64,000 nucleotides of DNA, taken from positions 1-64,000 of the forward strand of contig NZ_JABKDE010000013.1 in the NCBI RefSeq assembly GCF_013623835.1, in the 5' to 3' direction. Source of the stretch: Brevibacterium oceani (lineage in GTDB: Bacteria; Actinomycetota; Actinomycetes; Actinomycetales; Brevibacteriaceae). Under the pieces are notes generated by a model that saw only the letters and a program-made list of their open reading frames with translations, did not search any database and was not told where the DNA came from. The position numbers and the translations under genes were made by a program. Position 1 is the stretch's first letter. Each line of letters starts with the position of its first letter. Below, one piece after another: positions 49,401 through 64,000 of this stretch.

Positions 49401-52400
49401 AATCGGCACGGCTCATCGGCTACTACACCGGGGACGCCGACGAGGCCGCCCTCCGCGATCACCTCGCCGCCCAGCTGCCGGCACCGATGGTCCCCCACAT
49501 CCTCATCGGTCTCGATTCGATCCCGCTGACCTCACACGGCAAACTCGACCGTTCCCGACTGCCTGCCCCCACTGCTTCGGGGACCACGGACTCCAGAGCC
49601 GCGCGCAGCGCGGACGAACACATCATGTGCCGAGTCTTCTCGTCCGTGCTCGGTGCTGATGAGATCGGCCTCGACGACGACTTCTTCGACCTCGGCGGGC
49701 ACTCGCTGCTGGCGGTCTCCCTCATCGGCCGCATCCGCACTGCCTTCGACACCGAGTTGCCGCTGCGCGCAATCTTCGACTCCCCCACCCCGGCTGCACT
49801 GCTGAATCGACTCGAGTCTCGCGGCCGCACCGAGCCGGCACCCGCCGAGGAGCCCGCGATGACGGCCCAATCGGCCGACGGTGCGCCGCACCTGAGCCTC
49901 ACCGCGTGGAGTCGGTCGCACGGGCAGACCCGCCCGCAGCTGATCCCTCTGTCCTATGGGCAGGCGCGGCTGCACTTCCTCAATCAGCTCGACACCGATG
50001 CCTCGGACTACACCATCTCCCTGGCTGTCCGATTCTCCGGAGAGCTCGACGCGGATTCTCTCGGCCAGGCGCTGACGGACGTGATCGCCCGACACGAGAT
50101 CCTGCGCACCGTCTACCCCAGCGTCGATGGCAGCCCCGTCCAGCAGATCCTGCCCCCGGACGCCGGCGAGGGTCTCATGGCACGCCGCACCACAACCTCT
50201 CGCACGCAGACCGCGGAGCGAATGCGGGACGAGGCCGCCGTCGGATTCGACCTGAGCCGCGACCTTCCCATTCGTGCGAGCCTCTTCGCTGAAGGCGACG
50301 AGTGGGTCCTCCACCTGGTGATGCACCATATCGCCACCGACGGCGCCTCGCTGAGACCTCTGACGCAGGACCTGTCCACCGCCTATGCCGCACTGCGCGG
50401 CTCGGCCCATCCGATGCAGCGGACCCTCGAGGTCCAGTACGCCGAGTTCGCGCTCTGGCAGCGCCATGTCCTCGAGGGCGAGGAAGCCCCGGCAGCGGAG
50501 GCCCCGCTCCTGGAACGAAAGGTCCGGGCGTGGCACGACCGGCTCGAGGGGATTCCCACCGACATCAGCCTGCCCGCCGATCGTCCCCGTCCCACGACCG
50601 CCAGGCAGTCGGGTCGTCACCATCACTTCAGCCTCGACGCCCGCACCTCTGCCCGTCTGGCAGCGGTGGCCGCGGAGAACGGGGCCAGCCTGTTCATGGC
50701 GCTGCACTCCGTGCTCGCGGGCTATCTCAGCAGGCTCGGTGCCGGTGAGGACATCGTCATCGGTTCCCCCAGCGCCGGCCGCTCGGACCCGGCGTTGGAA
50801 GACATGGTCGGACTCTTCGTCAACACCATTCCGATCCGCACCGACACCTCGGCGGGCCCCGGCCTGCGCGAGCTCCTGGCTCGCACCCGCGCCGCAGTCA
50901 TCGATGCTGTGGAACTCGACGACGTGCCGTTCGAGCGTCTCGTCGAATCGGTCAATCCGCCTCGCGAACTGGGACGCCATCCCCTGTTCCAGGTCATGCT
51001 GTCCCTCGAGGAGTCGGCAGCACCGAAACTCGAGCTGCCCGGGGTGACCACGAGCCTCGAACCTGAGGTCGAAACCGGTGACGCGAAGTTCGACCTCTCG
51101 TTCACATTCCGCCGCAGCGATGCCGAGGCAGGGCTCGCGGTGGTCCTCGACTTCAACTCATCGATGTTCGACGCGGAGACAATAGCCGGCATCTGCCGAC
51201 GATTCTCCCGATTCGTCGATGAGGCCGTGCAGGATCCCGAACGACCGCTTAATGACATCGCCCTGCTCGACCCGGTCGAAACGCGGACGGCGATCGATTC
51301 CCTCACCGGCCCGGTGCCCGCGGACACGCCACCACCGGTGCTCGACGTCTTCGCCGCCACGGCAGCCCGACTGCCCGATGCCATGGCGGTCCGGTCCGAC
51401 CAGACATCAATGTCCTACCGCGAACTCGACGCGGCTTCGTCCGAGTTGGCGCACGAGCTCATCGACCAGGGAGCAGGTGCCGGCGAAACGGTCTCCGTCC
51501 GACTGAGTCGCGGCCTCGGCGTCATCGTCGCCACGCTGGCCGTGCTCAAGTCCGGTGCCGCCTTCAACCCGATCGACATCGACTACCCCAGTGGCCGCAC
51601 CACGGCGATCCTCACCGACGCCGAACCGCTCATCGTCATCACACAGCCGGGCGGCCCCTCAGAGCTCGCGCCCCTCCTCGCCGATGCCGGGATCACCCCG
51701 AGCATCGTCGAGATCTCGCCGGCCGACGGTTCGGTTCGCACCTCGCCTGCTCCTCAGGGGACGCCGATCCCAAGGGGAACCGCTGCGACCACGACCGCGA
51801 TGCCGCCCACGCCTCATCATGATTCGGCGGCCTATGTCACCTTCACCTCCGGCTCGACCGGTCGACCCAAGGGCGTCGAGGTCGGCCACTCGGCCCTGGC
51901 GAACCTCCTCGCCTCCCACCGCACACGGCTCCTGCCGACCCCGAGCGATGAGGCCGATCGGATTCCGGTCGCCCACACCACCGGAATCGGCTTCGACGCC
52001 GCCTGGGATCCCCTGCTGTGGATGGTGGTCGGGCATCCGCTTCACATCGCCAAGGAGACCGTCCAACGCGATCCACAGCAGCTGGCGGCCGATCTGCGCA
52101 GACTCGACATCGGGTTCTGGGAGACGACACCGAGCTACCTTCGCCTGCTGACCACCGAACCGGAATTCGAGCGCATGATCACCGAGGCCGCGGAAGAAGA
52201 CTCTCCGATCATCCTCGCCCTCGGCGGGGAAGCGATCGATCCCGATCTCTGGCAGTGGCTGCGCGACCACCCGGGCATCATCGCCCACAACCTCTACGGA
52301 CCCACAGAGACCACGGTCGACGCATTCGCCGCGCCTGTGGGCGCCTCCCCGACGCCGATTCTCGGGGCACCGCTTGAGCGCATGCGCGGATACGTCCTCG

Positions 52401-54091
52401 ATGAACGCCTCCATTATGTGCCGTCCGGCACGGTCGGGGAACTGTATCTGGCGGGTGAGCAGTTGGCCCACGGGTATCGGGGCCGACCGGGGCTGAGCGC
52501 AGAACGCTTCATCGCCGACCCCCATGGCGGCCCGGGCGAGCGCATGTACCGGACCGGTGACCTCGTCGTCCGGCACGAGAGCGGAGAGCTCGTGTTCATC
52601 GGTCGCAGCGATGATCAGATCCAACTGCGCGGATACCGGGTCGAACTCGGGGAGGTCGAGCGCGCACTGCGCCAGGCACCGGGCGTCAGGGACGCCGTCG
52701 TCCGCCCGTTCGGCACGGACCCTGCCACCATCCAGCTCGTCGGCTATATCGTCGCCGGGGCCGGCGCGAGAACGGAGACCGACGCCGAGCTCGCCGAAGA
52801 CGCAACCGGGACGTCGTCTCGGGACCTCCTCGCCGATGAGGTCCGCGACCATGTGCGATCGCTCGTTCCCTCATACATGGCGCCCTCGCACCTCGTCGTC
52901 ATCGACGAGATCCCTCTCACCGCTCACGGCAAGATCGACGAGGCGGCCCTGCCCGATCCGTCGACAGCGGCCGTCGGATCGCGGCTGATGCCGCGCACGC
53001 CGCAGGAGGAGACCGTCGCCGCGATCTTCGCGCGCGTACTGTCCCTGCCGCGTGTCGGCATCGATGAGTCGTTCTTCGAACTCGGCGGGCATTCATTCCT
53101 CGCCCGGCCCTTCATCGCGGCCGTCAACGAGGCCTTCGGGGCCGATCTGTCGGTCCAGGCCCTGTTCCGCTCACCGACCGTCGAACAGCTCGTTCGCGAG
53201 GTCGGCCGAGGCGGTGCGGACTCCATCGCCGACAGCCTCCACCGCCTGCTTCCGCTGCGCTGCGCGGGTTCGAAGCCGCCGCTGTTCGCCGTTCATCCGG
53301 CCACGGGCATCAGTTGGGGATTCGCCGCGATGCTCCACGGCCTCGATCCGGATCGTCCGCTGATCGGCCTGCAGATGCCCGGCCTCTCACCCGGGGACCC
53401 GGCGGAGATGACTGCCCGGACGCTGACCGAGCTCGCCGACGACTACATCGACCATCTGCAGACGGTTCAGCCATCGGGCCCCTACCACCTGATCGGGTGG
53501 TCTCTCGGCGGCGTCCTCGCCCACCGTCTGGCCACCCGCCTTCAGGAGCAGGGCGAGTCCGTCGCGTTCCTCGGAATTCTCGACGCCTTCCCCACCGGGC
53601 AGGAGCGCAACGCCGATGTCGGCGAAGGGTCCGAGCTGTGGGCGAACTACCTCGGCGCCAATCATCCGGCGATCACGGAGACGACGGAGGGTCTCGATGA
53701 CGAACGGGCCCTGGAGATCCTGCGTGCACACGGTGATCCCCTCGGCAATGTGGCACCGACAACCATAGAGGCGATGACCCGCGGGTTCTTCACCCTGGCC
53801 AGACTGATCCGCGAGGCCCCGGTGGAGACGTTCGACGGTGAGCTGGTGCTCTTCACCGCGACCCGGGACGTTCCCAGCGGCACCCCCGGCCCCGACTCAT
53901 GGCGCCGATTCGTCACCGGCGACATCCACGTCACCGAGGTCGATGCCCGGCACTCGGACATGCTGAGTGCCGAGGCGCTCGACGAGATTCTTCCCGTCCT
54001 GTCCATCCACATGGACGAGGCCGCCGAATCACAGATGAGTTCCATCCACTCCTGGAACCAAACCCCGCCAAGCAACACCACTAGGAGCTGA
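43454..54091 (+). CDS. Three-module nonribosomal peptide synthetase, C-A-T-C-A-T-C-A-T-TE
   Basis: The product is 3545 aa. Module 1: C (HHLLVDG at about 139), A (FTSGSTGRPKG at about 609), T (LGGHSL at about 994). Module 2: C (HHIAADG, about 1183), A (YTSGSTGTPKG, about 1692), T (LGGHSL, about 2080). Module 3: C (HHIATDG, about 2290), A (TSGSTGRPKG, about 2797), T (LGGHSF, about 3209), then thioesterase (GWSLGG, about 3347; ARHSD His). No epimerase, cyclase or methyltransferase domain is present. The first C domain resembles EntF over its length (LTSAQRGIWYAQ start, STGPVDDL), which suggests an acyl or aryl starter unit supplied by another carrier protein. All three A domains share FDA[SA]WDP--LW and ETTPS motifs, so their substrates may be alike. 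MbtH, exporter and PPTase genes follow. No DHB or hydroxamate genes are nearby. Confidence 0.93.
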   Translation: MTDENTRIDLTSAQRGIWYAQKIEPDNPTFQIGLYVDIRGPLDVDRMREAVATTVAEADSLNVVFGEDEKGPFQQLGPARSHLLVRDLRTESSEDPEASAHALMQEDLDTVHDVDEGDLLRSQLFHLGDDHWIFYQRAHHLLVDGYSAVLVLRRESQVYRELAEPGTGPSDWPFGSLDDLVAEEAQYRSSQRFATDAEFWKQVRSESETATSLAERPASPARRLVTCNADIPQELSSRLAGSRSAPTLILSAAAAYLHRMTGRESISVGLPVTARRSALSKSVPSMMSKILPVQMQAAPEMTTADLVAGAGATLRETLIHQRFQYQELSTDSDYIGPSVNIFPHVDDIDFGMTTASLHLLSTGPVDDLSIIIHGIGADPSSEGGSSPAIVRFEANAELYDQHSLAEHLRQFLSVLCQFDPSGDQHLAGLSLIAADESGELIAGGKGPEQSLPRHTVVEEFSRHARRSPFATAVVAEDGHISFGELDRRSTQLADRLRDFGAGPGARIAARLGRSTTLPVAVLGILRTGAAYVPLDPDYPADRIEAMIADAAPVLVINSSTVSGPAGETNMTTDRPVIDIDAVPQSAAPAPESTQTGSTPAPDDLAYVIFTSGSTGRPKGIGVEHRSLLNLFHSHKETIFDPAARRLGRGLRVAHTAGISFDASWDPLLWLFAGHELHLIDSVTRRDPETLTDYFSTHGIDSIETTPSFVKALLAHGTFSGTEHPSVVALGGEAVERGLWDQLAALPEVDSYNLYGPAETTVDSLTAPIVAGASPDLGGSVANTRHYVLDSRLTPVPAQARGELYIAGLNLARGYVGRPATTSERFIADPFADDGSRMYRTGDIVRRPLAGGIEFLGRADEQIKLRGYRVELSEVELALQSEDRIRSAAVVLGQNRAGYSQLLGYITADEQIDAAEVRRHMKTRVPDYMVPSFITQIERIPLTVNGKLDRAALPEPESTRSGSAAPRTVEEQAVAEAFAQVLGVETVGIDDDFFELGGHSLLATQLVASLRKRFAAPPALSEIFHHPTVRELSAGLDLGDTAEEPADELVAADRPATIPLSYAQSRLWFLNQFDPTSAAYNIPLTLRIRGDLDTDALRAAINDVVSRHESLRTVFPWTEGQPHQVIRAADDVQIALPIVEISEDLVDHTVDAEATRGFDVSTQLPIRALLVRLGAEDHLLLLTLHHIAADGWSLRPLAKDLSDAYRARARGTTPTLPELPIQYADYALWQRRALGSEEDPDSEIADQLAYWKNALSGAPVELRLPVDRPRSAQNTDRVSRRIPIDIDAETHAGLRRLSGERNASLFMVLQAAFAVLLSRLGAGSDIPIGTPVAGRTETKLDDLIGFFVNTLVLRTDTSGNPSLVDVVDRVRASNLSAYANQDAPFERVVDELAPPRSDQLHPLFQVMLTLQNTAPAALDMGDLDVEPAPGPQVSEAKFDLLLDLTERENDGAAHKASDTHAAGDMHTVSEAAGITGSLEFDSALFDESTAEAIAARFVRVIDQFAADPHTPLRELEVLRPDELAEIRAQGQGRDAVAPGSTILDVLESTIRSHPERRALIADDGELTFACLRARIDQIAHVLAARGITAGDSVAIALPRSADAIAAPLAVLSIGAVAVPIDLSYPGERIRLILDASAPAAVITDEMQLPVRPGTAIGTAELHTAEVGRRDDHTAGLGRRGADQPVPSDRAYEMYTSGSTGTPKGVAVPHSALLNLLAHHRETIFAEAGLDVGPVQAAHTAGLGFDAAWDPVLWLVAGASLHIVGDEIRRDAEALVRFCSEHEIRALETTPSFVRQLIISGLLEDDTGVDRVPLSLALGGEAVPEDLWQELAENPAVRAHNFYGPTEFTIDSVTAAVEGDRPTIGHPIRNVRTMVLDQHLCEVPHGVVGDLYLAGAGIASGYVNRPKETATRFVADPLEPGARMYRTGDLVRRHPDGSLDFVSRDDDQIKLRGYRVELGDVENALVSGSGVTQAAAIVENPTDPESARLIGYYTGDADEAALRDHLAAQLPAPMVPHILIGLDSIPLTSHGKLDRSRLPAPTASGTTDSRAARSADEHIMCRVFSSVLGADEIGLDDDFFDLGGHSLLAVSLIGRIRTAFDTELPLRAIFDSPTPAALLNRLESRGRTEPAPAEEPAMTAQSADGAPHLSLTAWSRSHGQTRPQLIPLSYGQARLHFLNQLDTDASDYTISLAVRFSGELDADSLGQALTDVIARHEILRTVYPSVDGSPVQQILPPDAGEGLMARRTTTSRTQTAERMRDEAAVGFDLSRDLPIRASLFAEGDEWVLHLVMHHIATDGASLRPLTQDLSTAYAALRGSAHPMQRTLEVQYAEFALWQRHVLEGEEAPAAEAPLLERKVRAWHDRLEGIPTDISLPADRPRPTTARQSGRHHHFSLDARTSARLAAVAAENGASLFMALHSVLAGYLSRLGAGEDIVIGSPSAGRSDPALEDMVGLFVNTIPIRTDTSAGPGLRELLARTRAAVIDAVELDDVPFERLVESVNPPRELGRHPLFQVMLSLEESAAPKLELPGVTTSLEPEVETGDAKFDLSFTFRRSDAEAGLAVVLDFNSSMFDAETIAGICRRFSRFVDEAVQDPERPLNDIALLDPVETRTAIDSLTGPVPADTPPPVLDVFAATAARLPDAMAVRSDQTSMSYRELDAASSELAHELIDQGAGAGETVSVRLSRGLGVIVATLAVLKSGAAFNPIDIDYPSGRTTAILTDAEPLIVITQPGGPSELAPLLADAGITPSIVEISPADGSVRTSPAPQGTPIPRGTAATTTAMPPTPHHDSAAYVTFTSGSTGRPKGVEVGHSALANLLASHRTRLLPTPSDEADRIPVAHTTGIGFDAAWDPLLWMVVGHPLHIAKETVQRDPQQLAADLRRLDIGFWETTPSYLRLLTTEPEFERMITEAAEEDSPIILALGGEAIDPDLWQWLRDHPGIIAHNLYGPTETTVDAFAAPVGASPTPILGAPLERMRGYVLDERLHYVPSGTVGELYLAGEQLAHGYRGRPGLSAERFIADPHGGPGERMYRTGDLVVRHESGELVFIGRSDDQIQLRGYRVELGEVERALRQAPGVRDAVVRPFGTDPATIQLVGYIVAGAGARTETDAELAEDATGTSSRDLLADEVRDHVRSLVPSYMAPSHLVVIDEIPLTAHGKIDEAALPDPSTAAVGSRLMPRTPQEETVAAIFARVLSLPRVGIDESFFELGGHSFLARPFIAAVNEAFGADLSVQALFRSPTVEQLVREVGRGGADSIADSLHRLLPLRCAGSKPPLFAVHPATGISWGFAAMLHGLDPDRPLIGLQMPGLSPGDPAEMTARTLTELADDYIDHLQTVQPSGPYHLIGWSLGGVLAHRLATRLQEQGESVAFLGILDAFPTGQERNADVGEGSELWANYLGANHPAITETTEGLDDERALEILRAHGDPLGNVAPTTIEAMTRGFFTLARLIREAPVETFDGELVLFTATRDVPSGTPGPDSWRRFVTGDIHVTEVDARHSDMLSAEALDEILPVLSIHMDEAAESQMSSIHSWNQTPPSNTTRS

Positions 54092-54097
54092 AAACCC

Positions 54098-54304
54098 GTG
54101 AATAATCCCTTCGATGACACAACAGGGACCTTCCGCGTGCTGGTCAATGACCTGCAGCAGCATTCGCTGTGGCCGTCGTTCGCCGATGTGCCCGCGGGAT
54201 GGGTCCTCGTGTTCGGACCGGCCAGCCGCGACGACTGCCTCGAATTCGTCGAGGAGAACTGGACGGACATCACTCCGCGCCGGCTCGCCGAGATCGCCTC
54301 ATAG
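54098..54304 (+). CDS. MbtH-like protein
   Basis: The product is 68 aa from GTG 54098. It shows the MbtH pattern NPFDDTTGTFRVLVND, then HSLWPSFADVPAGWVLVFGP. Usually three Trp residues and a Pro-Gly pair contact the A domain, and Trp at SLWP, PAGW and ENW are present. MbtH proteins bind adenylation domains and aid their folding and activity. It begins 6 nt after the NRPS stop and overlaps the next start by 1 nt, so it is cotranslated and serves this NRPS. Confidence 0.93.
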   Translation: MNNPFDDTTGTFRVLVNDLQQHSLWPSFADVPAGWVLVFGPASRDDCLEFVEENWTDITPRRLAEIAS

Positions 54305-55287
54305 TGATTCGCCTGGAGAATCTGAGGAAGAACTATGGGGCCTTTCGGGCTCTCGACGGCATCAGCCTGGACATCGAGGAGGGACAGATCTTCGGTCTCC
54401 TCGGCCCCAATGGGGCCGGGAAGACGACGACCGTCAAGGTTCTGTCCACACTGATCCGCCCCGACTCCGGCACCGCCGTCGTCGCAGGTCACTCGGTGAC
54501 CGCCGATCCCACGGCCGTCCGCCGCAGCATCGGCCTCTCCGGCCAGTACGCGGCCGTCGATGAGAAGCTCACCGGGTACGAGAACCTCGTCATGGTCGCC
54601 CGCCTCTACGGGATGAGTCGCCGGGAATCGGCGGGCCGTGCCCGCGAGCTGCTGGCCGAATTCGGTCTCAGCGACGTCGCAGGCAAACGCGCAGGCGCCT
54701 ATTCGGGAGGCATGCGGCGACGACTCGACCTGGCCTCGGCCCTGGTCGTGCGTCCGCCGGTGGTCATTCTCGACGAACCGACCACCGGGCTCGATCCGCG
54801 CGCGCGGCTCGACACCTGGGAGGTCATCACCACCCTGGTCAGAAGCGGCACCACCGTGCTGCTGACGACCCAGTACCTGGAGGAGGCCGACCAACTGGCC
54901 GATCGCATCGCCGTCATCGATTCCGGACAGGTCATCGCCGAGGGAACCTCCACCGACCTCAAGGGCAAGCTCGGTGCCGAACGCATCACACTGACGCTGA
55001 CCCACCGCGACTCCCTCGACAGAACCCTGCGGATCCTCGACCGCATCTTAGGCGACTCCGCCCACCCGCAGACGGACGCGTCGGGACTGCGCATCACCGC
55101 GTCCGCACCACTGGGACAGAGGGATCTGCTGCAGGTCCTCGCCGCCTTGGAAGACGAGGGGCATTCCGTCACCGAGGCGGCCCTGTGCCGTCCGACGCTC
55201 GACGACGTGTTCCTCGATCTCACCGGACAGCCCACCTCGGCGAGGCCCTCACGGACACCGGCCGACACCGCCGAGGTGGGAGCATGA
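54304..55287 (+). CDS. ABC transporter ATP-binding protein, DrrA-like
   Basis: The product is 327 aa from GTG 54304 (TAGTG overlap). Walker A is GPNGAGKTTT, the Q-loop area is IGLSGQYAAVDE, the signature is YSGGMRRRLDLA, Walker B is PPVVILDEPTTGLDPR, and the switch region reads LLTTQYLEEADQLA. A C-terminal extension (about 225-310) is typical of drug-resistance exporters of the DrrA/DrrB type. With the next gene it would export the NRPS product. It ends in an ATGA overlap with the permease. Confidence 0.93.
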   Translation: MIRLENLRKNYGAFRALDGISLDIEEGQIFGLLGPNGAGKTTTVKVLSTLIRPDSGTAVVAGHSVTADPTAVRRSIGLSGQYAAVDEKLTGYENLVMVARLYGMSRRESAGRARELLAEFGLSDVAGKRAGAYSGGMRRRLDLASALVVRPPVVILDEPTTGLDPRARLDTWEVITTLVRSGTTVLLTTQYLEEADQLADRIAVIDSGQVIAEGTSTDLKGKLGAERITLTLTHRDSLDRTLRILDRILGDSAHPQTDASGLRITASAPLGQRDLLQVLAALEDEGHSVTEAALCRPTLDDVFLDLTGQPTSARPSRTPADTAEVGA

Positions 55288-56084
55288 CCACGCTCGTCTC
55301 CGCCGCTCGCGACAGCTCCGTCATCGCCTGGCGCAATCTGCTCACCGTCCGTCGGACTCCGGGGGCCCTGGTCACGGGGGTCGTCCAGCCGGTGATCTTC
55401 GTCTTCCTCCTCGCATTCGTCTTCGGCGGCAGCCTCGGCGGTGGGCCGTACCGGGAGTTCCTCATCGGCGGGATCCTGGCTCAGACGCTGACCTTCAATT
55501 CCTCCTTCACCGCCGTCTATCTCGCCAAGGACCTCCAGCTCGGACTCATCGACCGTTTCCGTTCGCTGCCGATGTCACGGGTCGCCGTGATTCTGGGCAG
55601 AACATCCTCGGACCTGGTCACCAGCCTCATCTCCGTGGCCGTGACGATGATCTGCGGTCTGCTCATCGGGTGGCGCATCACGGAGGGATTCGGCTCGGCC
55701 CTGCTGGGCGTCACGCTCCTGCTGCTCTTCAGCTTCGCCATGTCGTGGATCGGTGCGGTCATCGCACTGACGGCCAGGAGCGTCGAGGTGGCACAGAGCC
55801 TCGGCCTCATCTGGCTCTTCCCCGTCACCTTCATCTCCGGAGCCTTCGTCTCGATCGACACCCTTCCGGGCCCGCTGCAGACGATCGCCGCATGGAATCC
55901 GATCACCGCGGTCGCCACCAGCGTCCGAGAGCTGTTCGGCAACGCACCGCCGGCAGGGTTCGTCACCAGCACGGGCTGGGCGGCCGACAACGCCGTCATC
56001 TATGCGCTCCTCAGCTGCGTCGCGGTCATCGCCGTCTTCTCGCCCATCGCCGTCTCCCAGTACCGTCGGATCAGTCGGAGATGA
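55284..56084 (+). CDS. ABC-2 type permease, DrrB-like
   Basis: The product is 266 aa from ATG 55284 (ATGA overlap). Six membrane segments are present, with an N-terminal WRNLLTVRRTPGALVTGVVQ before the first helix. The family block FRSLPMSRVAVILGRTSSDL and the C-terminal helix pair with PVTFISGAFVSIDTLPGPLQ (the conserved ABC-2 signature) are clear. It forms the membrane channel for the DrrA-like ATPase. The stop overlaps the PPTase start. Confidence 0.92.
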   Translation: MTTLVSAARDSSVIAWRNLLTVRRTPGALVTGVVQPVIFVFLLAFVFGGSLGGGPYREFLIGGILAQTLTFNSSFTAVYLAKDLQLGLIDRFRSLPMSRVAVILGRTSSDLVTSLISVAVTMICGLLIGWRITEGFGSALLGVTLLLLFSFAMSWIGAVIALTARSVEVAQSLGLIWLFPVTFISGAFVSIDTLPGPLQTIAAWNPITAVATSVRELFGNAPPAGFVTSTGWAADNAVIYALLSCVAVIAVFSPIAVSQYRRISRR

Positions 56085-56824
56085 CGAGAGCCGCGATCGA
56101 ATACCTCATCAGCGACATCACAGCGATCGAACGGGTGCTCGCCGATCACCCGTGGCTCGGTTCGCTGCTGTCACCGGACGAGGATGCTCGCGCGGACCGT
56201 TTTCGCAGACCCGCCGATCGGGCCACGTTCCGAGGGGCGCATCTGATCTTTCGGCTCATGGCGGCTCGCCGCCTCGGCATCGATCTCGACGAGGCCGGCG
56301 AATTGGAGCTGATACGCCGCTGTCGCACATGCGGCGGCCCCCACGGCAAGCCGGCGATCCCCGGGGCGGAACTCAGCCTGTCTCGGTCGAACGGGGCCGT
56401 GGCGATCGCCTCGGCGCCTGGGACCTCACCGATCGGAGTCGACATCGAACAGGTCCCGCCCGATGTCTTCTCCGGCTTCGACGACTACGTACTCGGCCCG
56501 ACGGAGACTGTGCCCGAGGGCGGCGATTCCGTGCGTCGGCGCATCGACGTCTGGGTGTGCAAGGAAGCCGCGGTGAAGACCACCGGGCATGGGCTGTCCG
56601 TGCCGCCCGGTGATCTCACGGTGACCGAGGTTGCCGACCGGCGATCAGGAATCAGCCCGCGCGGACGATGGACGGCCGCGATCGCAGCCCCCGGATATTC
56701 CGAACTCGACGCACTCAACATCTCTCGGCTCACGTGCCCTCGACCCTATGTCGCGGCGTTGTGCAGTGCCGCTCGAATGCCCGTCGAGGCTGTCGGTCTG
56801 CAGGAGATTCTCGCCGGACGGTGA
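56081..56824 (+). CDS. 4'-phosphopantetheinyl transferase (Sfp type)
   Basis: The product is 247 aa from ATG 56081 (ATGA overlap). The PPTase motifs are FRGAHLIFRLM with the CoA-binding Arg, PHGKPAIPG, SLSRSNGAVAIA, GVDIEQV with the Mg2+ Asp, and WVCKEAAVKTTGHG, the WxxKEA motif. It transfers phosphopantetheine from CoA to the T-domain serine of the NRPS, making the operon self-sufficient for activation. CRTCGGPHGKP matches the Cys-containing loop common in this family. It converges with the next gene, with 31 bp between. Confidence 0.93.
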   Translation: MTRAAIEYLISDITAIERVLADHPWLGSLLSPDEDARADRFRRPADRATFRGAHLIFRLMAARRLGIDLDEAGELELIRRCRTCGGPHGKPAIPGAELSLSRSNGAVAIASAPGTSPIGVDIEQVPPDVFSGFDDYVLGPTETVPEGGDSVRRRIDVWVCKEAAVKTTGHGLSVPPGDLTVTEVADRRSGISPRGRWTAAIAAPGYSELDALNISRLTCPRPYVAALCSAARMPVEAVGLQEILAGR

Positions 56825-56855: not shown

Positions 56856-58574
56856 TCAGGACAGAGCCCGATCGCCGAGGACTTTCCCCGGGTTGAGGTT
56901 CTGTCCGGGGTCGGTGGCGCGAAATACGGCATCGACCATGAATGCCCCCGGCTCGCTGATGTCGTCGACGAGCCACGGCTGGTGCTCGGTGCCGACTCCG
57001 TGGTGGTGCGACAGGCCTCCACCGGAGTCGATGAACTCCTGCTGAATGCTGTCCTTGACGTCCTGATACTCCGCCAGCGCTGTGTCCTCGTCCGTGTAGG
57101 GAATCGCGAAGGTGAAGTACAGGCAGGCGCCGCCGTGATAGCTGTGGGACAGATGGCAGAACATGAACCCCGGTCCGCCCTGCTCGCTGCGGGTCTGGCG
57201 GAATCGCTCGTGCACCCGAGCATGGACGTTCTTGAGATCTCCCCACGTCACTCCCGTCTCGCAGACATCGCCGAAGACCTTGTAGTTGAGCAGGAAGTCA
57301 CGCAGATACGGGGTGTCGAACTTCTTCTGATCGTAGACGGCGCCGGGCCCGGAGCCGAGGCTGATTCCGCCTCGGTGAGCGATGAGTTCCTTCACCTCGG
57401 CCTTCTCACGTGCCACGCGCTCCTTCGACCCTTCGAAGCAGACGTATGACAGGCACATGCCTTCTGTCGTGTCCCACCCTTTGGACCGCAGGTAGGCGAA
57501 CAGGGCGTCCTGACCGCGAGCCGCGATCGTTGCCTTCACACCCTTCGGCTCAGAGACCATCGCGAGACTGAACCGAGTCTCGGGCCCGTCTGAGAGACGG
57601 GTGAACGCGGGCGTGACCTCGGAACGGGCGATGTCGTGCATGGCCTCGACTCCACTAGCCCAATCGGGGAAGAGGTAGGCGATGACCTGCCGCACCTTCG
57701 GCAGCCGATGCACCTGCACCGTGCATTCCGAGATCACACCGAGACGGCCTTCGCTGCCGAGGACCATCTCATGCACCGAAGGACCCGAATCGCGGCCCGG
57801 AATGGGCTTGCTCACCATGACGCCACGAGGGTGGACGACACGAAGACCCCGCACGATGTCTTCGATGTCACCGTACTTGTCCGACTGCATTCCCGATGAC
57901 CGGGTCGCCGCCCATCCTCCGAGGGTCGAATAGCTGAACGAGTCGGGGAAATGACCCACCGTCCATCCGCGAAGATTGAGCTGCTCCTCGAGGTCGGGGC
58001 CATATGCTCCGGCTTCGACTCGCGCGAGGCCCGAATACTCGTCGATGTCGATGACTCGACGCATCCTCCCGAGATTCAGCGAGACGATGGGACGCTCCTC
58101 ATCCGGACTCGGGGTCACTGAGCCGGAGATGCATGAGCCGCCGCCGTAGGGAATGAGCACGAGATCGCGGTCGAGGACGAGAGCGAGGACAGCGGCGATC
58201 TCATCCTCGCTGCCGGGGTAGACGACGGCGTCGACGAGGCGGGTGATCGGCTCGTGGCGCACCCGGTAGAGGTCCGGCAGGGAGCGGCCGAACGAATGGA
58301 TCACGCGCAGTTCGTCGTCGACGCTGACATTGTCCGACTCGACCACGGCGCCGAGCTCGTCGAGAAGCGTCGATGACATTCGCGACTCAGGTATGGTCAG
58401 ATCGCTGAGCACCGGGGTGGTCGGCCGCGGAGCATTCCAGAGGTCGAGACCGACTTTGTCCTTGGCGATCGCGGCGAAGTCGGGTTTGGTCTCCCACCGG
58501 AAGTCGACTCCTTCGGCTCCCCAGCCCCACCAACGGTGCCGTTTGACGTCCTGCATTCTCATGGGTTCGCTCAT
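56856..58574 (-). CDS. FAD-linked oxidase, probable alkyl-dihydroxyacetonephosphate synthase
   Basis: The product is 572 aa. The N-terminal RHRWWGWGAEG is the WWGWG motif of the AGPS family. The FAD-binding region has PYGGGSCISGSV (about 143) and GGWAATRSSGMQSDKYGDIE. The active-site motif SHHHGVGTEHQPWL (about 520) carries the His residues that AGPS uses to swap an acyl chain on acyl-DHAP for a fatty alcohol, forming the ether bond. Length fits the family. It overlaps the acyltransferase gene by 4 nt (ATGA). Close relatives include bacterial alkylglycerone synthases and some FAD-linked oxidases of unknown use, so the reaction is inferred from motifs plus the FAR, SDR and PlsC neighbours. Confidence 0.85.
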   Translation of the reverse strand: MSEPMRMQDVKRHRWWGWGAEGVDFRWETKPDFAAIAKDKVGLDLWNAPRPTTPVLSDLTIPESRMSSTLLDELGAVVESDNVSVDDELRVIHSFGRSLPDLYRVRHEPITRLVDAVVYPGSEDEIAAVLALVLDRDLVLIPYGGGSCISGSVTPSPDEERPIVSLNLGRMRRVIDIDEYSGLARVEAGAYGPDLEEQLNLRGWTVGHFPDSFSYSTLGGWAATRSSGMQSDKYGDIEDIVRGLRVVHPRGVMVSKPIPGRDSGPSVHEMVLGSEGRLGVISECTVQVHRLPKVRQVIAYLFPDWASGVEAMHDIARSEVTPAFTRLSDGPETRFSLAMVSEPKGVKATIAARGQDALFAYLRSKGWDTTEGMCLSYVCFEGSKERVAREKAEVKELIAHRGGISLGSGPGAVYDQKKFDTPYLRDFLLNYKVFGDVCETGVTWGDLKNVHARVHERFRQTRSEQGGPGFMFCHLSHSYHGGACLYFTFAIPYTDEDTALAEYQDVKDSIQQEFIDSGGGLSHHHGVGTEHQPWLVDDISEPGAFMVDAVFRATDPGQNLNPGKVLGDRALS

Positions 58575-59305
58575 TTCTTCGTCCTTTCCGGCGATTCAGC
58601 GTGTTCACTGCCGACACCGATGTCATCGGCTCCCGCGGCGAAGAGCTCCGCCACGAGCTGCCGCACCCGCGCGGTGAGTTCAGAAAGCGATTCCTCGTCT
58701 CGGGCGGTGACCGGTTCACCGAAGACCACACGCACGGGCGGCCTGCCCGAAACAGGCCACGATCGTCCCTTGGGCATCGCTTCGAAGCCGCCGATCACGG
58801 CGGTCGGCACGATCGGGACCCCTGCGTCGACAGCCAGTTTGATCGACCCCGCCTTGAAATCGGCGATCGTGCCGTTCTTCTGGCGGCCTCCCTCGGGAAA
58901 CAGCAGGACCGGCACCCCAGACCTCAGAAGGGCGCGAGGGACCTTCGCACTGCCGCGAGCAGCTTCCCGATAGATCGGAAAGGCATTGAAGAGCCAGCGG
59001 ACGAAGAGCCGCTTGTGCCACGAGGTGAAGAAGTAGTCGTAGGCGACTCCGGTTGCCAGAAAGCGCGACTGCTTCCGCGGCAGGCTCTGCGCGATGATCG
59101 GCGCATCGAGATGGGAGGTGTGGTTGGCGATGACGAGGAAGCCTCCGTCGAGCCGGCGTACTGCCGGCGCAATCGTCACCGTCTGTGTGATCGTCGAACG
59201 GACGAGGCCGCGGAAGAGGACACGCTGGAGAAGGAATCTCAGTGTTGCGCGCGAGCGGGATCGGTACTTCGTCGGCGCCGGTTGTGGGAGAGTGTGATCA
59301 GTCAT
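58571..59305 (-). CDS. PlsC-family 1-acylglycerol-3-phosphate acyltransferase
   Basis: The product is 244 aa from ATG 59305, the start that gives the usual family length; the frame extends to 59485 without a clear ribosome binding site. The catalytic HX4D motif is HTSHLD and the substrate-binding block is PEGGRQKNGTIADFKAG. VPIVPTAVIGG and PVRVVFGEPV are the later family blocks. It would acylate the sn-2 position of 1-alkyl (or 1-acyl) glycerol-3-phosphate. It shares an operon with the alkyl-DHAP synthase (ATGA overlap), so an ether-lipid substrate is plausible. Confidence 0.85.
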   Translation of the reverse strand: MTDHTLPQPAPTKYRSRSRATLRFLLQRVLFRGLVRSTITQTVTIAPAVRRLDGGFLVIANHTSHLDAPIIAQSLPRKQSRFLATGVAYDYFFTSWHKRLFVRWLFNAFPIYREAARGSAKVPRALLRSGVPVLLFPEGGRQKNGTIADFKAGSIKLAVDAGVPIVPTAVIGGFEAMPKGRSWPVSGRPPVRVVFGEPVTARDEESLSELTARVRQLVAELFAAGADDIGVGSEHAESPERTKK

Positions 59306-59450
59306 CACTGAATGTTCGGAGCCGACACCACTGATGGATTGGCATTCCGACGACATTCTTCGTATCTGGCGCGCGGCGACCGGCTGCGAAAGTGACTCGC
59401 AATGATCACCGGAGTCCGAGTGAGTTCTTCCAGTATTGAACATCGTCGCC

Positions 59451-60233
59451 CTAGACCTCCTGTTGCCGTCGGGAAGTGAGTGCATCAGAGAGGTGATGGA
59501 TCACCGGACGCGGTAGCAGTCGCAACGTCATCGAAATGACCTTCCATCGCAGCTGCGGCACGGAGATCCTCTTCCCACGTGCGACGTCTCGAAGGCATCC
59601 CTCCACGAGCATATCCGAGTCCATCCAGAGGAACCCGGGAATCGATGTTCCGGCAATACCGGCTCGGGAATGAAATTCGGTGCGCACCCAACCAGGCACC
59701 AGAGCGGTCACGTTCACTCCCATGCCCGAGGTCTGCACGGCAAGCGCCTCCGAGTAGTTCTGCGTCCACGCCTTGATGGCGGTGTAATTATTCTGGGTCA
59801 GACTCGCACTGACAGAACAGACGTTGATGATCCAACCACGTCCCCGCTGCTTCATCGCCCGAGCGGCGGCTCCACCGATGACCAGGACAGCGCGCTGCAT
59901 CACTTCGAACCCCCGATCGTGGTCGGAGACATCGTGACTGAGCAGGCTCGAACGCACAGAGAAGCCCGCATTGTTGACGACGATGTCGATGTCGGGTTCG
60001 GAACCGGGTTCCTCGATCCGCGCAGCCACCTCAGCCTGGGCCTGCCTGTCCGCGAGGTCGGCGACCATCGTTGCGACGTGCACCCCGAAATCGCTGCGGA
60101 TCTGCTCTGCGAAGGTTTCCATAGCGATCGGATCTCGAGCCACGAGAACAAGGTCGACGCCGCGCTTGGCGAAGGCGCGGGCAAATGCCGCACCGATGCC
60201 AGCGCTGCCACCGGTGATGAGAGCCACATTCAT
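59451..60233 (-). CDS. Short-chain dehydrogenase/reductase
   Basis: The product is 260 aa from ATG 60233. The NADPH-binding loop is LITGGSAGIGAAFARAFAKR, the structural motif is VNNAGF, and the catalytic Ser-Tyr-Lys set lies in NVCSVSASLTQNNYTAIKAW (Ser and YxxxK). It resembles DltE/17-beta-HSD12-like reductases that act on fatty or keto substrates. Beside an alkyl-DHAP synthase, the missing step is reduction of alkyl-DHAP to alkylglycerol-3-phosphate, which this enzyme could do. This role is inferred. It is transcribed ahead of the PlsC and synthase genes, across a 145-bp gap. Confidence 0.83.
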   Translation of the reverse strand: MNVALITGGSAGIGAAFARAFAKRGVDLVLVARDPIAMETFAEQIRSDFGVHVATMVADLADRQAQAEVAARIEEPGSEPDIDIVVNNAGFSVRSSLLSHDVSDHDRGFEVMQRAVLVIGGAAARAMKQRGRGWIINVCSVSASLTQNNYTAIKAWTQNYSEALAVQTSGMGVNVTALVPGWVRTEFHSRAGIAGTSIPGFLWMDSDMLVEGCLRDVARGKRISVPQLRWKVISMTLRLLPRPVIHHLSDALTSRRQQEV

Positions 60234-60333
60234 ATTGCTACGATACAGGCATCCATCAATGCGACCGCACCGAATCACTGATGACCGCTGCGTCCGTCCA
60301 TGCCACACTGTCCTCTCTCCGATAGGTTCCCGA
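60234..60333. promoter_or_regulatory. Divergent promoter region of the ether-lipid locus
   Basis: Only 100 bp separate the start codons of the reductase and the FAR-HAD gene, so both promoters and any regulator sites must lie here or slightly inside. No clear palindrome was seen. Confidence 0.4.
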
Positions 60334-62580
60334 ATGCAACAAAGTCGATATCTCCTCACGGGTGCCACCGGGTTCCTTGGTCAAGCGGTGCTTCAAGCCC
60401 TGCTCGAAAGTGATCCCCACGTGCGCGTCACCGCACTCGTGCGTCCCCGGGGGGACCGGTCAGGACATGATCGTCTGCAGCGGATCCTCGGTAAGCCGGT
60501 CTTCGCTTCCTGGATTTCTGAGGTCGGCGAGGAGGCAGTGCATGAGGCCTTCGATTCACGTGTCACGGTCCTCGAGGGCGATCTCGCTGATCTGCCGCCA
60601 CTGACCGATCGCTATGACGTCGTGATCCACTCCGCGTCGAGCGTGTCCTTCGACGCCGCCATTGACGAGGCCTTCCACACCAATGTCGGCGGAGTCAAGC
60701 GACTCTACGCCGCCTTGGCGGAATCGAATCAGGATCCCCACGTCATCCATGTCTCAACAGCCTATGTCGGAGGAATCGCAAAAGGTGTCGTGCAGGAGTC
60801 CCGGCTGGGTCACACCGTCGATCATGACGGTGAGTTCCGAGCCGCACAACTGGCCAGGGAGAGCGTCGAGGCAGAGTCCAGGCAACCCGAGAAGCTGCGC
60901 CGTTTCATCCAGATGGCTCAAGCACAGAGCTCTCGGATGGGCCCCAAATCCGTCGCAGCCGGCGCAGAGGCTGCCCGGGAGAAGTACGTGAGGGATCGGC
61001 TCGTGGAGTTCGGGCGCACCCGGGCACAGTCGCTGGGCTGGACGGACATCTACACCTTCACCAAGGCTCTGGCCGAGCGCATCGGCGAGGAGTGGGCCGC
61101 CGCAGGCCATCAGGTCTCCTTCGTTCGCCCGTCCATCATCGAATCTGCCCTCCGCCGGCCGAGCCCCGGTTGGATTGACGGCTTCAAGGTCGCGGATCCG
61201 CTGATCATGGCCTACGCCAAGGGAAGCCTGTCGGAATTCCCCGGGCACGCCGACTCGGTGCTCGACATCATCCCCGTCGACTATGTCGTCAATGTCATCC
61301 TCGCCCTTGCCGAGCAAGGTCCTCTCGAGCGGCAGCCTGCCGACCACGACAGCGGCTCCGGACAGCCGGACCGAGGTCATTCGGACTACTACCAGGTCGT
61401 ATCGGGCATGAGCAATCCCCTGCCGTTCCACCAGATGGTCGGAACCGTCCGCGAGTACTTCCTCGACCATCCGCTGCCTGACAGCGAAGGTGTTCCCATG
61501 GCGGTGCCCGAATGGAGCTTCCCCAGCTCCGAACTCATCGAACAGCGCATCCGGCTGAAGGAACTGGCTACGGGCGTCGGCCGCGAAGTCGTCGAGCGGC
61601 TGCCCGCCTCGACGCGCACACGCGCCCTGACCTCACGGCTGCGCAAGACCGACGCCAAACTGAAGTCACTGCGTCAGTTCGCCGACCTGTACCAGCAGTA
61701 CACGAAGACGGAGATGATCTTCGACGATGCGAACACGAGACGTCTGCTTGAGCGGCTGCCGGAGGACTGCCCGACCAATCGCAGGTTCGACGTGACCGAG
61801 ATCGACTGGACGGAATACTTCCAGGACGTCCACATCCCGGCGATCACAGAACTCACCCGCAGCTATTCGCGCAGACGCCGACAGAGCGAGGCCACGCCCA
61901 CTCCGCGTCCCCTGCCGCCCACTTCCGAGGCTCTGGCCGTCTTCGACCTCGACGGGACGGTGATCTCAGCGAACATCGTGCAGCAGTTCGCGGCGGTCGT
62001 GCGCGCCACGCAGCCGATCTACAAGTGGCCGGCGATGATGGGAACGATGGCCGGAGTCGTCCCCGGACTGCTGCGCGCCGAGTACCGCGACCGTTCGGAC
62101 CTCATCCGCATGGTCAATCGCCGATATCAGGGCTTTCGCCTCGATGAGCTCCGAGCGGCCGTCACCAGCCGCCTCGGGCAGACGATCCGCGACTCCATCC
62201 GCCCCCAGGCTCGGCAGCTCATCGATGAGCACCGCGCGGCCGGTCACCGCACGGTCCTGCTCACGGGCGCTCTCGACGTCCTCGTCGAACCTCTGTCCGA
62301 TCTCTTCGACGAGGTGGTCGCAACCCGGATGGACGTCACAGATGACGGTGTTCTCTCGGGGTTCCTCGCGAGCCCTCCGCTGGTCGATGAAGCTCGGGCG
62401 AACTGGCTGCGCAAATACGCCGACACCGTGGGCGCCGATCTGGGACGTTCGACCGGCTACGGCGACTCTCTGGGCGATGCCGCATGGCTCGAACTCGTCG
62501 GCAGTCCCGTTGCCGTCACTCCGGATCTCGGTCTCTACGGCCTGGCACTGAAGAAGCGATGGAAAGTGATGGAATGGTGA
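60334..62580 (+). CDS. Fatty acyl-CoA reductase fused to a HAD-family phosphatase
   Basis: The product is 748 aa from ATG 60334. The N-terminal NAD-binding fold is LLTGATGFLGQAVLQALLES, with VIHSASSVSFDAAIDEAF and VSTAYVGGIAKG. The catalytic YxxxK is in IYTFTKALAERIG (about 240), and VRPSIIESALRRPSPGWIDG is typical of male-sterility/FAR proteins. From about 535 a HAD-IB domain follows: VFDLDGTVISAN with the nucleophilic Asp, LLTGALDVLVEP, and YGDSLGD near the end. The first half would reduce acyl-CoA to fatty alcohol; the second may remove a phosphate, perhaps from a lipid intermediate. Fatty alcohol is the second substrate of the alkyl-DHAP synthase encoded divergently. It overlaps the next gene. 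Confidence 0.85.
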   Translation: MQQSRYLLTGATGFLGQAVLQALLESDPHVRVTALVRPRGDRSGHDRLQRILGKPVFASWISEVGEEAVHEAFDSRVTVLEGDLADLPPLTDRYDVVIHSASSVSFDAAIDEAFHTNVGGVKRLYAALAESNQDPHVIHVSTAYVGGIAKGVVQESRLGHTVDHDGEFRAAQLARESVEAESRQPEKLRRFIQMAQAQSSRMGPKSVAAGAEAAREKYVRDRLVEFGRTRAQSLGWTDIYTFTKALAERIGEEWAAAGHQVSFVRPSIIESALRRPSPGWIDGFKVADPLIMAYAKGSLSEFPGHADSVLDIIPVDYVVNVILALAEQGPLERQPADHDSGSGQPDRGHSDYYQVVSGMSNPLPFHQMVGTVREYFLDHPLPDSEGVPMAVPEWSFPSSELIEQRIRLKELATGVGREVVERLPASTRTRALTSRLRKTDAKLKSLRQFADLYQQYTKTEMIFDDANTRRLLERLPEDCPTNRRFDVTEIDWTEYFQDVHIPAITELTRSYSRRRRQSEATPTPRPLPPTSEALAVFDLDGTVISANIVQQFAAVVRATQPIYKWPAMMGTMAGVVPGLLRAEYRDRSDLIRMVNRRYQGFRLDELRAAVTSRLGQTIRDSIRPQARQLIDEHRAAGHRTVLLTGALDVLVEPLSDLFDEVVATRMDVTDDGVLSGFLASPPLVDEARANWLRKYADTVGADLGRSTGYGDSLGDAAWLELVGSPVAVTPDLGLYGLALKKRWKVMEW

Positions 62581-63491
62581 CAAGCGACAGAACACTCCGC
62601 AGCCCCCTCGTCGAACATCCGCCCGGGCATGTCAGAGGACGACTGTTCTCCGATGCAGAGCATCCCATCGTGCTCCGCACAGCATTCGATGTCGACGACT
62701 ATCTTGCTCACGCTCGAGGACGCATCGAAGTCGACTCAGAGCGCATCGAGGTGACCGGAGACGTGGCACGCGATCTCGGCTTCCTATGGCGACTGGAGAA
62801 CTCGGCGCTGGCCGAGACCCGAGCGATGTTTGCCTCCTGGACTTCCAACGAAGCGCGGATCACAGCCTTCGTGACGGGATGGGGCTACGAACGGTACTGG
62901 TTGGCGCGGGCACTGCGCGACATGCTCGAAACCACCCTCAGCCCTGAGGACCTTCGCGGGGGCAGGTCACGGAGACTGCGCGGAATGTGGGTCGAACGGG
63001 GCCTGCCGATCCTCGCACCTGTCGTCGGCGGACTGGTCAAGGAACCTCTCACCGCCGGGCACATGGCCAGGCTCGCGATCCAGGAGGCGGGCCTCCAGGC
63101 AGCTGAACGGGCAGTGCGTACACGACTCAGCGGTGAAGCCGCTCGCGTCCTGACCGAAATCATCGACCGGCGCGAGGCGATCATCCGCTTCTTCCGTTCG
63201 GAGGCGGTGGCTCGGATCCGACGATCACAGATCGAAGCAGTCACCGCTCGTGCTCACCTCATGCGGCCGTGGGCTCCCCTGCGGATCGTCGGAGTGCCCG
63301 AACCGGATGAAGCCAGCGCTCTGACAAGCATCTTCGCTTCTGCATCCGACAGACGACGCCTGATCGACTCGGATGCCGAGATCGGACGATTCCTGCTGGG
63401 GAACCCTCAGCCTTCGATGAACCAAGTGACGGCGGCGCTGCGCTCGACGCGCAGAGCCCATGCTCAAGCAGGGAGAAACCATGGCCTTTGA
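62574..63491 (+). CDS. Ferritin-like paralogue lacking the ExxH metal motif
   Basis: The product is 305 aa from ATG 62574, which has GGAAAG 7 nt upstream; the frame is open further upstream. It has no clear Pfam-style signature by eye, but aligns with the product of the next gene: FLWRLENSALAETRAMFASW and GYERYWLARALRDML correspond to YMCDVEYHTTCFVRELL and NREEFWHGEALAAVL there. The ExxH diiron motif of the second protein is absent here (RYWL). The Glu in LENS and the Glu in IQEAGL are kept. It therefore looks like a duplicated, probably non-catalytic helical-bundle partner. It overlaps the FAR-HAD gene by 7 nt and the next gene by 11 nt. Confidence 0.6.
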   Translation: MVTSDRTLRSPLVEHPPGHVRGRLFSDAEHPIVLRTAFDVDDYLAHARGRIEVDSERIEVTGDVARDLGFLWRLENSALAETRAMFASWTSNEARITAFVTGWGYERYWLARALRDMLETTLSPEDLRGGRSRRLRGMWVERGLPILAPVVGGLVKEPLTAGHMARLAIQEAGLQAAERAVRTRLSGEAARVLTEIIDRREAIIRFFRSEAVARIRRSQIEAVTARAHLMRPWAPLRIVGVPEPDEASALTSIFASASDRRRLIDSDAEIGRFLLGNPQPSMNQVTAALRSTRRAHAQAGRNHGL

Positions 63492-64000
63492 CTTCGACAA
63501 GTACGCCGAGACGTCCGAGGCGGTGAACTGGACCGATCTGGATCTCGATGTGTTCGATGACATGCCCTTGGACAGAGACACTCTCCGGTCGGTGCGATAC
63601 ATGTGCGACGTCGAATACCACACCACATGTTTCGTCAGGGAGCTGCTCGTCACTCCTTCACACAGCGAGGACGCCACGGCGGCATTCATGACCATGTGGA
63701 ACCGTGAGGAGTTCTGGCACGGCGAGGCATTGGCCGCCGTGCTCGAGAAACACGGAATCCACGTCGATTACGACGAGGTCAAAGCCAAGCGGATGAGCTT
63801 GGGGTGGAAACTCGCTCTCGGGCCTGCAAAGCAGTCGCTGCTGTCGAACATGGTGGGCACGGACTTCATTGCCGTGCATATGGCTTGGGGTGCGGCCAAC
63901 GAGCTCTCCGCCACAGCCGGATATCGCAGGATGGCGGCGATGCAGGACCACCCGGTGCTCTCTCCGCTGCTTGAGCGCATCGCCAAGCAGGAGACTCGAC
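63481..64000 (+). CDS. Ferritin-like diiron protein, partial
   Basis: ATG 63481 is preceded by GGGAGAAACC, and the frame stays open to the right edge, giving 173 residues. Helix 1 contains RYMCDVEYHTTCFVRELL with a Glu ligand candidate. Helix 2 has NREEFWHGEALAAVLEKHG with ExxH. Later helices contain WGAANELSATAGYRRM and IAKQETR, matching the second Glu and second ExxH start. This is the spacing of a four-helix diiron protein (ferritin-like, desaturase or oxygenase type). The C-terminal part and the last His lie outside the window. Coupled to the FAR-HAD gene and the paralogue, it may oxidise a lipid chain, for example by desaturating an alkyl ether, but this is speculation. Confidence 0.7.
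   Translation, partial: MAFDFDKYAETSEAVNWTDLDLDVFDDMPLDRDTLRSVRYMCDVEYHTTCFVRELLVTPSHSEDATAAFMTMWNREEFWHGEALAAVLEKHGIHVDYDEVKAKRMSLGWKLALGPAKQSLLSNMVGTDFIAVHMAWGAANELSATAGYRRMAAMQDHPVLSPLLERIAKQETR

Follow-up and report, generated by a model that had tools for sequence, protein, structure and literature searches.

The window analysed here comprises positions 1-64000 of a 64456-base contig in the 4.48 Mb genome of Brevibacterium oceani. Its right-hand end carries a locus that, judging from the predicted products, very probably encodes an aerobic ether-lipid pathway of the AGPS (alkyl-dihydroxyacetone phosphate synthase) type. Two divergent sets of genes flank 100 intergenic bases (60234..60333), which are presumed to be a promoter region. 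On the minus strand, in order from this region, are a short-chain dehydrogenase/reductase (SDR; PF00106; 59451..60233), the candidate alkyl-dihydroxyacetone phosphate (alkyl-DHAP) reductase; a PlsC-family acyltransferase (PF01553; 58571..59443); and the 572 aa AGPS homologue (56856..58574), whose start the acyltransferase gene overlaps by 4 bases. The plus strand carries an array of successively overlapping genes. The first (60334..62580) encodes a fatty acyl-CoA reductase (FAR; NAD_binding_4, PF07993, and Sterile, PF03015) fused to a HAD-IB phosphatase (PF12710), and is referred to as FAR-HAD. The second, P5 (62559..63491), begins within the end of FAR-HAD and is a degenerate paralogue of the third. 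This is P6 (63481..64266), a 261 aa soluble desaturase-like diiron protein that overlaps P5 and of which the window holds 63481..64000. Start codons are our choice; that of PlsC was picked by an upstream AGGAGG, and P5 may start at 62559 or 62574.

A preliminary description of the window had reported a compact locus with alkyl-DHAP synthase motifs, PlsC, an SDR, a FAR and a HAD phosphatase, and all of these genes are present by Pfam domain. The FAR and HAD domains do not belong to separate proteins, however, and P5 and P6, overlapping in the same array, had been overlooked.

Both of the reported motifs are found in the AGPS homologue, WWGWG near its N terminus and HHHGVG near its C terminus, together with the FAD-binding domains PF01565 and PF02913. 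Against solved structures it scores 303–349 bits with AGPS chains (Dictyostelium 349, guinea-pig 306) and 74 bits with the best non-AGPS molecule. Residue mapping used 12 guinea-pig AGPS positions, which we take to be active-site residues, and 11 of the 12 agree in the alignment. His300, Asp303, Thr309, Ser367, Arg419 and Arg515 correspond to residues 208, 211, 217, 274, 326 and 425, and Cys576, Tyr578 and His615-617 to residues 484, 486 and 523-525. The alignment comprised the homologue, the Dictyostelium and guinea-pig enzymes, 17 further clade sequences, three FAD oxidases from the host genome and six actinobacterial paralogues at greater distance; a fourth host oxidase, which fell short of the cut applied, stands outside it, and two entries, L039 and P0104, are both from Kocuria dechangensis. 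The equivalents of Arg419, Arg515, Tyr578, the HHH, Asp303 and Cys576 are conserved in 18/18 clade sequences. The six paralogues (L122-L127) are a second actinobacterial AGPS-like family of 35–38% identity, which retains Arg419, Arg515, Tyr578 and the HHH and has Gln303 and Ser576 instead. Taken alone, therefore, the shared Arg, Tyr and His residues do not separate the AGPS clade from the paralogue family.

Could the homologue instead be an unrelated hydroxy-acid FAD oxidase, in a cluster that is not for ether lipids? The preliminary description had named such an oxidase as its refuting case. The Pfam domains are common to the homologue and such oxidases, and, although some database records of the protein read alkyldihydroxyacetonephosphate synthase, many say just FAD-binding oxidoreductase. 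However, the three host FAD oxidases in the alignment retain none of Arg419, Arg515, Tyr578, His615 and His616. This active-site pattern and the gap between 349/306 and 74 bits led us to reject the identity, and the conserved lipid-gene context and the dimethyl acetals published for species with the gene set, both described below, also speak against it. We consider it highly improbable. At the residue level the assignment of the homologue as a putative alkyl-DHAP synthase is supported. The protein shares 91% identity with its counterpart in Brevibacterium sp. CCUG 69071 and 98% with that in a record named B. sediminis.

The gene set fits the fatty alcohol supply, ether formation, ketone reduction and acylation that had been proposed; the sn-2 role of PlsC is less certain. 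The top models for PlsC are 1-acylglycerol-3-phosphate acyltransferases, with scores under the cut-off, and the solved enzyme of that name is likewise its best match, which favours sn-2 acylation. Given the overlap with AGPS and the lack of a second acyltransferase within the locus, PlsC may act on DHAP instead. Other PF01553 proteins are encoded in the genome, three over the cut-off and one below. For the SDR the nearest NCBIfam model is mycolate reductase (149 bits against a cut-off of 380). Mycolate reductase is a reductase of lipid ketones, so this match fits the reduction of alkyl-DHAP. The FAR part matches PF07993 at 163 bits and Sterile at 38 bits (cut-off 35.4), and its match to a solved structure spans residues 6-506. 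The Sterile domain is typical of alcohol-forming fatty acyl-CoA reductases. Our guess is that the HAD domain dephosphorylates a pathway intermediate.

The same genes recur around AGPS in other genomes. Within 6 kb of AGPS in the best 80 loci of 292 AGPS relatives, PlsC is found in 76/80, the SDR in 78/80, and FAR and HAD each in 73/80. All four are present in 70/80, which indicates that the grouping is more than chance. Among the incomplete loci, L037, L054 and L077 are short contigs, and others, L064, L075, L080 and L084 among them, are true losses or rearrangements within long loci. Of the 70 full loci, 59 have FAR-HAD and the SDR in divergent orientation, 10 have them co-directional and 1 is otherwise arranged. 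The genera represented include Brevibacterium, Brachybacterium, Kocuria, Subtercola, Herbiconiux, Occultella, Georgenia, Jiangella and Streptomyces. P5/P6-type genes number two in 27 of the 80 loci, one in a single locus and none in 52. One locus, L013 of Kocuria sp. 36, is a Brevibacterium-like copy of the whole locus, with an AGPS 78% identical to that of the window (52–55% for the other Kocuria AGPS listed), and reflects either horizontal transfer or a misnamed genome.

Directly adjoining AGPS, at 43454-56824, are genes for a nonribosomal peptide synthetase (NRPS) of 3545 aa with three condensation, adenylation and carrier domains and a thioesterase, a DrrA-like ATP-binding cassette (ABC) transporter ATPase and an Sfp-type phosphopantetheinyl transferase. 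This position raises the idea that the lipid genes tailor the peptide product rather than membrane lipids, and in Brevibacterium sp. CCUG 69071 an ABC gene 93% identical to that of the window also lies beside AGPS. In the other 79/80 loci, however, ABC matches are at most 39% identical. With a close ABC neighbour in 1/80 loci the link was dropped; tailoring is the least probable of the explanations considered here, and the NRPS, ABC and Sfp-type genes are probably a separate peptide cluster.

The predicted structure of P6 is that of a soluble diiron protein, with stearoyl-ACP (acyl carrier protein) desaturase as the nearest fold. Its predicted diiron ligands follow the pattern E, ExxH, E, ExxH, and all six are conserved in 28/28 sequences. 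Identity to acyl-ACP desaturases (castor stearoyl-ACP desaturase, M. tuberculosis DesA2) is 12–18% among the matches listed. The Pfam family FA_desaturase_2 is matched marginally, at 23.1 bits against a cut-off of 22.7, and at E<=0.001 in 11/17 P6 members; 2/17 match Rubrerythrin. Together, the diiron site, fold and marginal Pfam score make P6, as modelled, a putative member of the soluble acyl-ACP desaturase family. P5 lacks two of these ligands, the second-helix His and the fourth-helix Glu, in 22/22 sequences, in a low-identity alignment on which this count depends.

Co-occurrence was counted in a class-wide sample of 246 genomes, with bit-score cuts set at gaps in the match lists. The cut of at least 600 bits for the AGPS clade kept 31 of 59 genomes that match at E<=1e-90 (the lower matches are at about 305–338 bits), that of at least 400 bits for P6 kept 25 of 35 matching at E<=1e-5, and that of at least 700 bits for close FAR-HAD kept 24 of 60. 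Strong P6 is thus found in 25/246 genomes, the AGPS clade in 31 and close FAR-HAD in 24. The AGPS clade accompanies P6 in 21/25 genomes and FAR-HAD does so in 23/25. By genome, Fisher's test gives p 4e-19 for P6 with AGPS and p 5e-29 for P6 with FAR-HAD, values inflated by family clumping; by genus, P6 with AGPS gives p 4e-7 (both 6, AGPS only 3, P6 only 1, neither 93). The tables were tallied by hand and carry no tree correction. In a named set of 50 of the 80 AGPS loci, from which metagenome-assembled genomes, further Brachybacterium, three Jiangella and a second Kocuria marina were omitted, P6 is present in 36/50 genomes. It lies elsewhere than the fetched AGPS locus in 7/9 Brachybacterium, 3/3 Jiangella and Nigerium. 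One 3.0 Mb genome of the host genus (G221) has no P6, AGPS protein or FAR-HAD match at the cuts used, so the gene set may be sporadic within Brevibacterium.

Dimethyl acetals have been published for species that carry the set. In the parts of the two papers drawn on here, branched dimethyl acetals are given for S. vilae DB165, S. frigoramans, S. boreus and S. lobariae of the genus Subtercola (PMC5945732), with sums from Table 2 of 22, 27, 29 and 21% peak area, respectively. Agreia has at most 4% of the iso-15:0 acetal and Frondihabitans has none; the word plasmalogen is unused in that paper. In PMC7472656, dimethyl acetals are taken as indicative of plasmalogens; S. boreus and S. frigoramans are called aerobic, with acetals confirmed by gas chromatography-mass spectrometry (GC-MS), and the anteiso-15:0 acetal was found by GC-MS in the aerobic Kineococcus rubinsiae. 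AGPS, PlsC, SDR, FAR-HAD, two P6-family genes, a LarA-type gene and a second PlsC are encoded in S. vilae DB165 (L072, L128), and the same set is present in S. lobariae CGMCC 1.12976 (L058, L129), possibly the strain of Table 2. The gene set is also carried by three S. boreus strains, of which none bears the name of the type strain. The ether-lipid reading of the preliminary description thus draws support from the AGPS residues and from Subtercola strains of acetal-positive species. The LarA-type gene and second PlsC lie between FAR-HAD and P6 in Subtercola and G090 (L101:8900-10966, L128:14964-16664, L129:2575-4110). The LarA-type gene is over the cut-off of the LarAH14/15/16 model in L101, below it in L129 and recognised by similarity only in L128; in G090 it stands in a locus without a matched AGPS.

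Which enzyme would then make the vinyl ether? PF09989, which we take to be the domain of PlsA/PlsR-type plasmalogen proteins, was searched for and matched 0/13 chosen genomes, the host and five Subtercola included, and 4/14 control genomes; PlsA/R was set aside as the vinyl-ether enzyme on this result. P6 is the leading proposal, and the PF00487 membrane desaturases are its main rival for this step.

The observations are the genes present, their recurrent neighbourhood, the conserved residues, the co-occurrence and the dimethyl acetals published for carrier species; every reaction of the pathway that follows is our inference. FAR would convert acyl-CoA to fatty alcohol, and an acyltransferase, possibly the coupled PlsC, would supply acyl-DHAP. 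AGPS would exchange the acyl chain for the fatty alcohol to give alkyl-DHAP, which the SDR would reduce to alkyl-glycerol-3-phosphate. The sn-2 position would then be acylated, either by the PlsC of the locus or by a different PF01553 protein, and normal phospholipid synthesis would follow, with the HAD domain perhaps dephosphorylating an intermediate. P6, with the degenerate subunit P5 as a frequent partner, most likely oxidises one of the chains in the pathway, and ether lipids together with such an accessory redox role of P6 seem probable to us. In the leading proposal P6 would add the vinyl-ether double bond, yielding plasmalogens and replacing CarF/PEDS1. A role of P6, often with P5, as a vinyl-ether (delta-1') desaturase of the soluble diiron type, with no relation to CarF/PEDS1, is put forward tentatively, at somewhat less than even likelihood; we lowered our estimate because the class-wide overlap of P6 and AGPS is mostly that of one family.

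Several observations weigh against these readings. One family (f25) supplies 17 of the 21 genomes with both P6 and AGPS, the rest being from f1, f5 (two) and f7, and P6 tracks FAR-HAD more closely than AGPS. P6 is accompanied by FAR-HAD without the AGPS clade in G090 and G164 and by neither in G094 and G117. Conversely, 10/31 AGPS-clade genomes, eight of one genus, are without P6. The ten weaker P6 matches all fall outside the AGPS-clade genomes; with these included, 14/35 lack the AGPS clade. In the named set 14/50 genomes are without P6: Brachybacterium nesterenkovii, B. equifaecis, Helcobacillus, two Georgenia, Propioniciclava, Microlunatus kandeliicorticis, Propioniferax, Nonomuraea, and Kocuria dechangensis, subflava, polaris, salsicia and soli (the last with a P5-like match only). 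R2-like oxidases are only about 3 Z units under the desaturases in the fold comparison, and solved proteins of the best-matching fold act on acyl-ACP. The CarF domain PF10520 gave no match in the 246 or the 50 genomes, S. vilae DB165 included, in a search that had no positive control, and a PF00487 membrane desaturase is over the cut-off in 16/19 chosen genomes, including the host and all five Subtercola. Among the papers listed, the literature search found no dimethyl acetal report for Brevibacterium, Kocuria or Brachybacterium; DMA and dimethyl are absent from the main text of a Kocuria paper that covers the P6 carrier K. marina. For S. vilae the acetal names come from the MIDI system, and GC-MS is unmentioned in the part of PMC5945732 used. 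Acetal terms were not found in the first 300,000 characters of PMC6113628.

Part of this evidence would suit another explanation, in which only saturated alkyl ethers are made by the locus, P6/P5 adds a double bond or a hydroxyl group to some other acyl or alkyl chain, and the vinyl ethers of relatives, if any, come from a different enzyme such as the PF00487 membrane desaturase. The nearness of the P6 fold to acyl-ACP desaturases, the 23/25 against 21/25 overlaps, the frequency of PF00487 and the position of the G090 P6, adjoining FAR-HAD and PlsC with AGPS unmatched, are all in its favour. Two points oppose it. Chains and acetals alike are nearly all saturated in Subtercola (PMC5945732 Table 2), so that another desaturation product is not evident there, and B. 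casei and Nigerium, going by their genes, have P6 with PF00487 unmatched. We rank it second, as a serious possibility of below-even probability. It is improbable that P6/P5 acts on FAR-derived fatty aldehydes in the manner of aldehyde deformylating oxygenase, giving alkanes or trimmed aldehydes: the Sterile domain is, as noted above, typical of alcohol-forming reductases, and the fold match of P6 to such oxygenases is weaker than that to desaturases.

Bacterial plasmalogens have been tied mostly to anaerobes and PlsA/R (PMC9702350) or, aerobically, to myxobacteria and CarF (PMC9131029), and AGPS homologues in actinobacterial metagenome-assembled genomes have already been published (PMC11868695). 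The preliminary description's view that ether lipids are little known in aerobic actinobacteria is fair though not absolute, as PMC5945732 and PMC7472656 both credit Subtercola dimethyl acetals to a paper of 2000. Among the matches listed, our literature search found no genes assigned to the dimethyl acetals of aerobic actinobacteria, and neither the cassette nor a plasmalogen enzyme of the soluble diiron type was described there. The full AGPS-type gene set is now linked to acetal-bearing aerobic actinobacteria, and a candidate for the vinyl-ether step is named. If the leading proposal for P6 is true, P6 would be an independent oxygen-dependent route from alkyl ether to plasmalogen in these bacteria and its activity would explain the Subtercola dimethyl acetals. 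Ether lipids may be overlooked in Brevibacterium, Brachybacterium, Kocuria, Jiangella and some Streptomyces, since the MIDI system is reported to have mislabelled the anteiso-15:0 dimethyl acetal as 14:0 2-OH (PMC7472656).

The mammalian peroxisomal pathway, as set out in the sections of PMC9131029 used here, consists of FAR1, GNPAT, AGPS, acylglycerone-phosphate reductase and PEDS1. By homology, the locus shares with it a FAR, an acyltransferase, AGPS and an SDR-type reductase, and an oxygen-dependent desaturation, as in mammals, is possible. In contrast, the bacterial genes form a single locus, FAR is fused to HAD, PlsC stands where mammals use GNPAT, and CarF/PEDS1 is unmatched, with a soluble diiron protein and its degenerate paralogue instead. 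The preliminary description knew of no described system with this gene set. A comparable operon does exist in Myxococcus xanthus (MXAN_1676-1674), where an AGPS homologue is accompanied by a reductase and by FAR and acyltransferase domains (PMC9131029), and elbB of that species is, like the domain here, a HAD protein. The M. xanthus fusions are different, its AGPS homologue is minor beside ElbD, and CarF makes its vinyl ether. PlsA/PlsR also make plasmalogens and are also present in some Actinobacteria, but they are anaerobic and work by reduction of an acyl ester, in which neither DHAP nor AGPS takes part, unlike the locus here (PMC9702350). P6 resembles the soluble acyl-ACP desaturases of castor and M. 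tuberculosis (DesA2) in fold and diiron ligand pattern, and differs from them in its low identity, its frequent position beside a degenerate paralogue and its ties to FAR and AGPS genes. The kind of pathway is a known one, here in a new form, and P6 may be a new enzyme for the final step.

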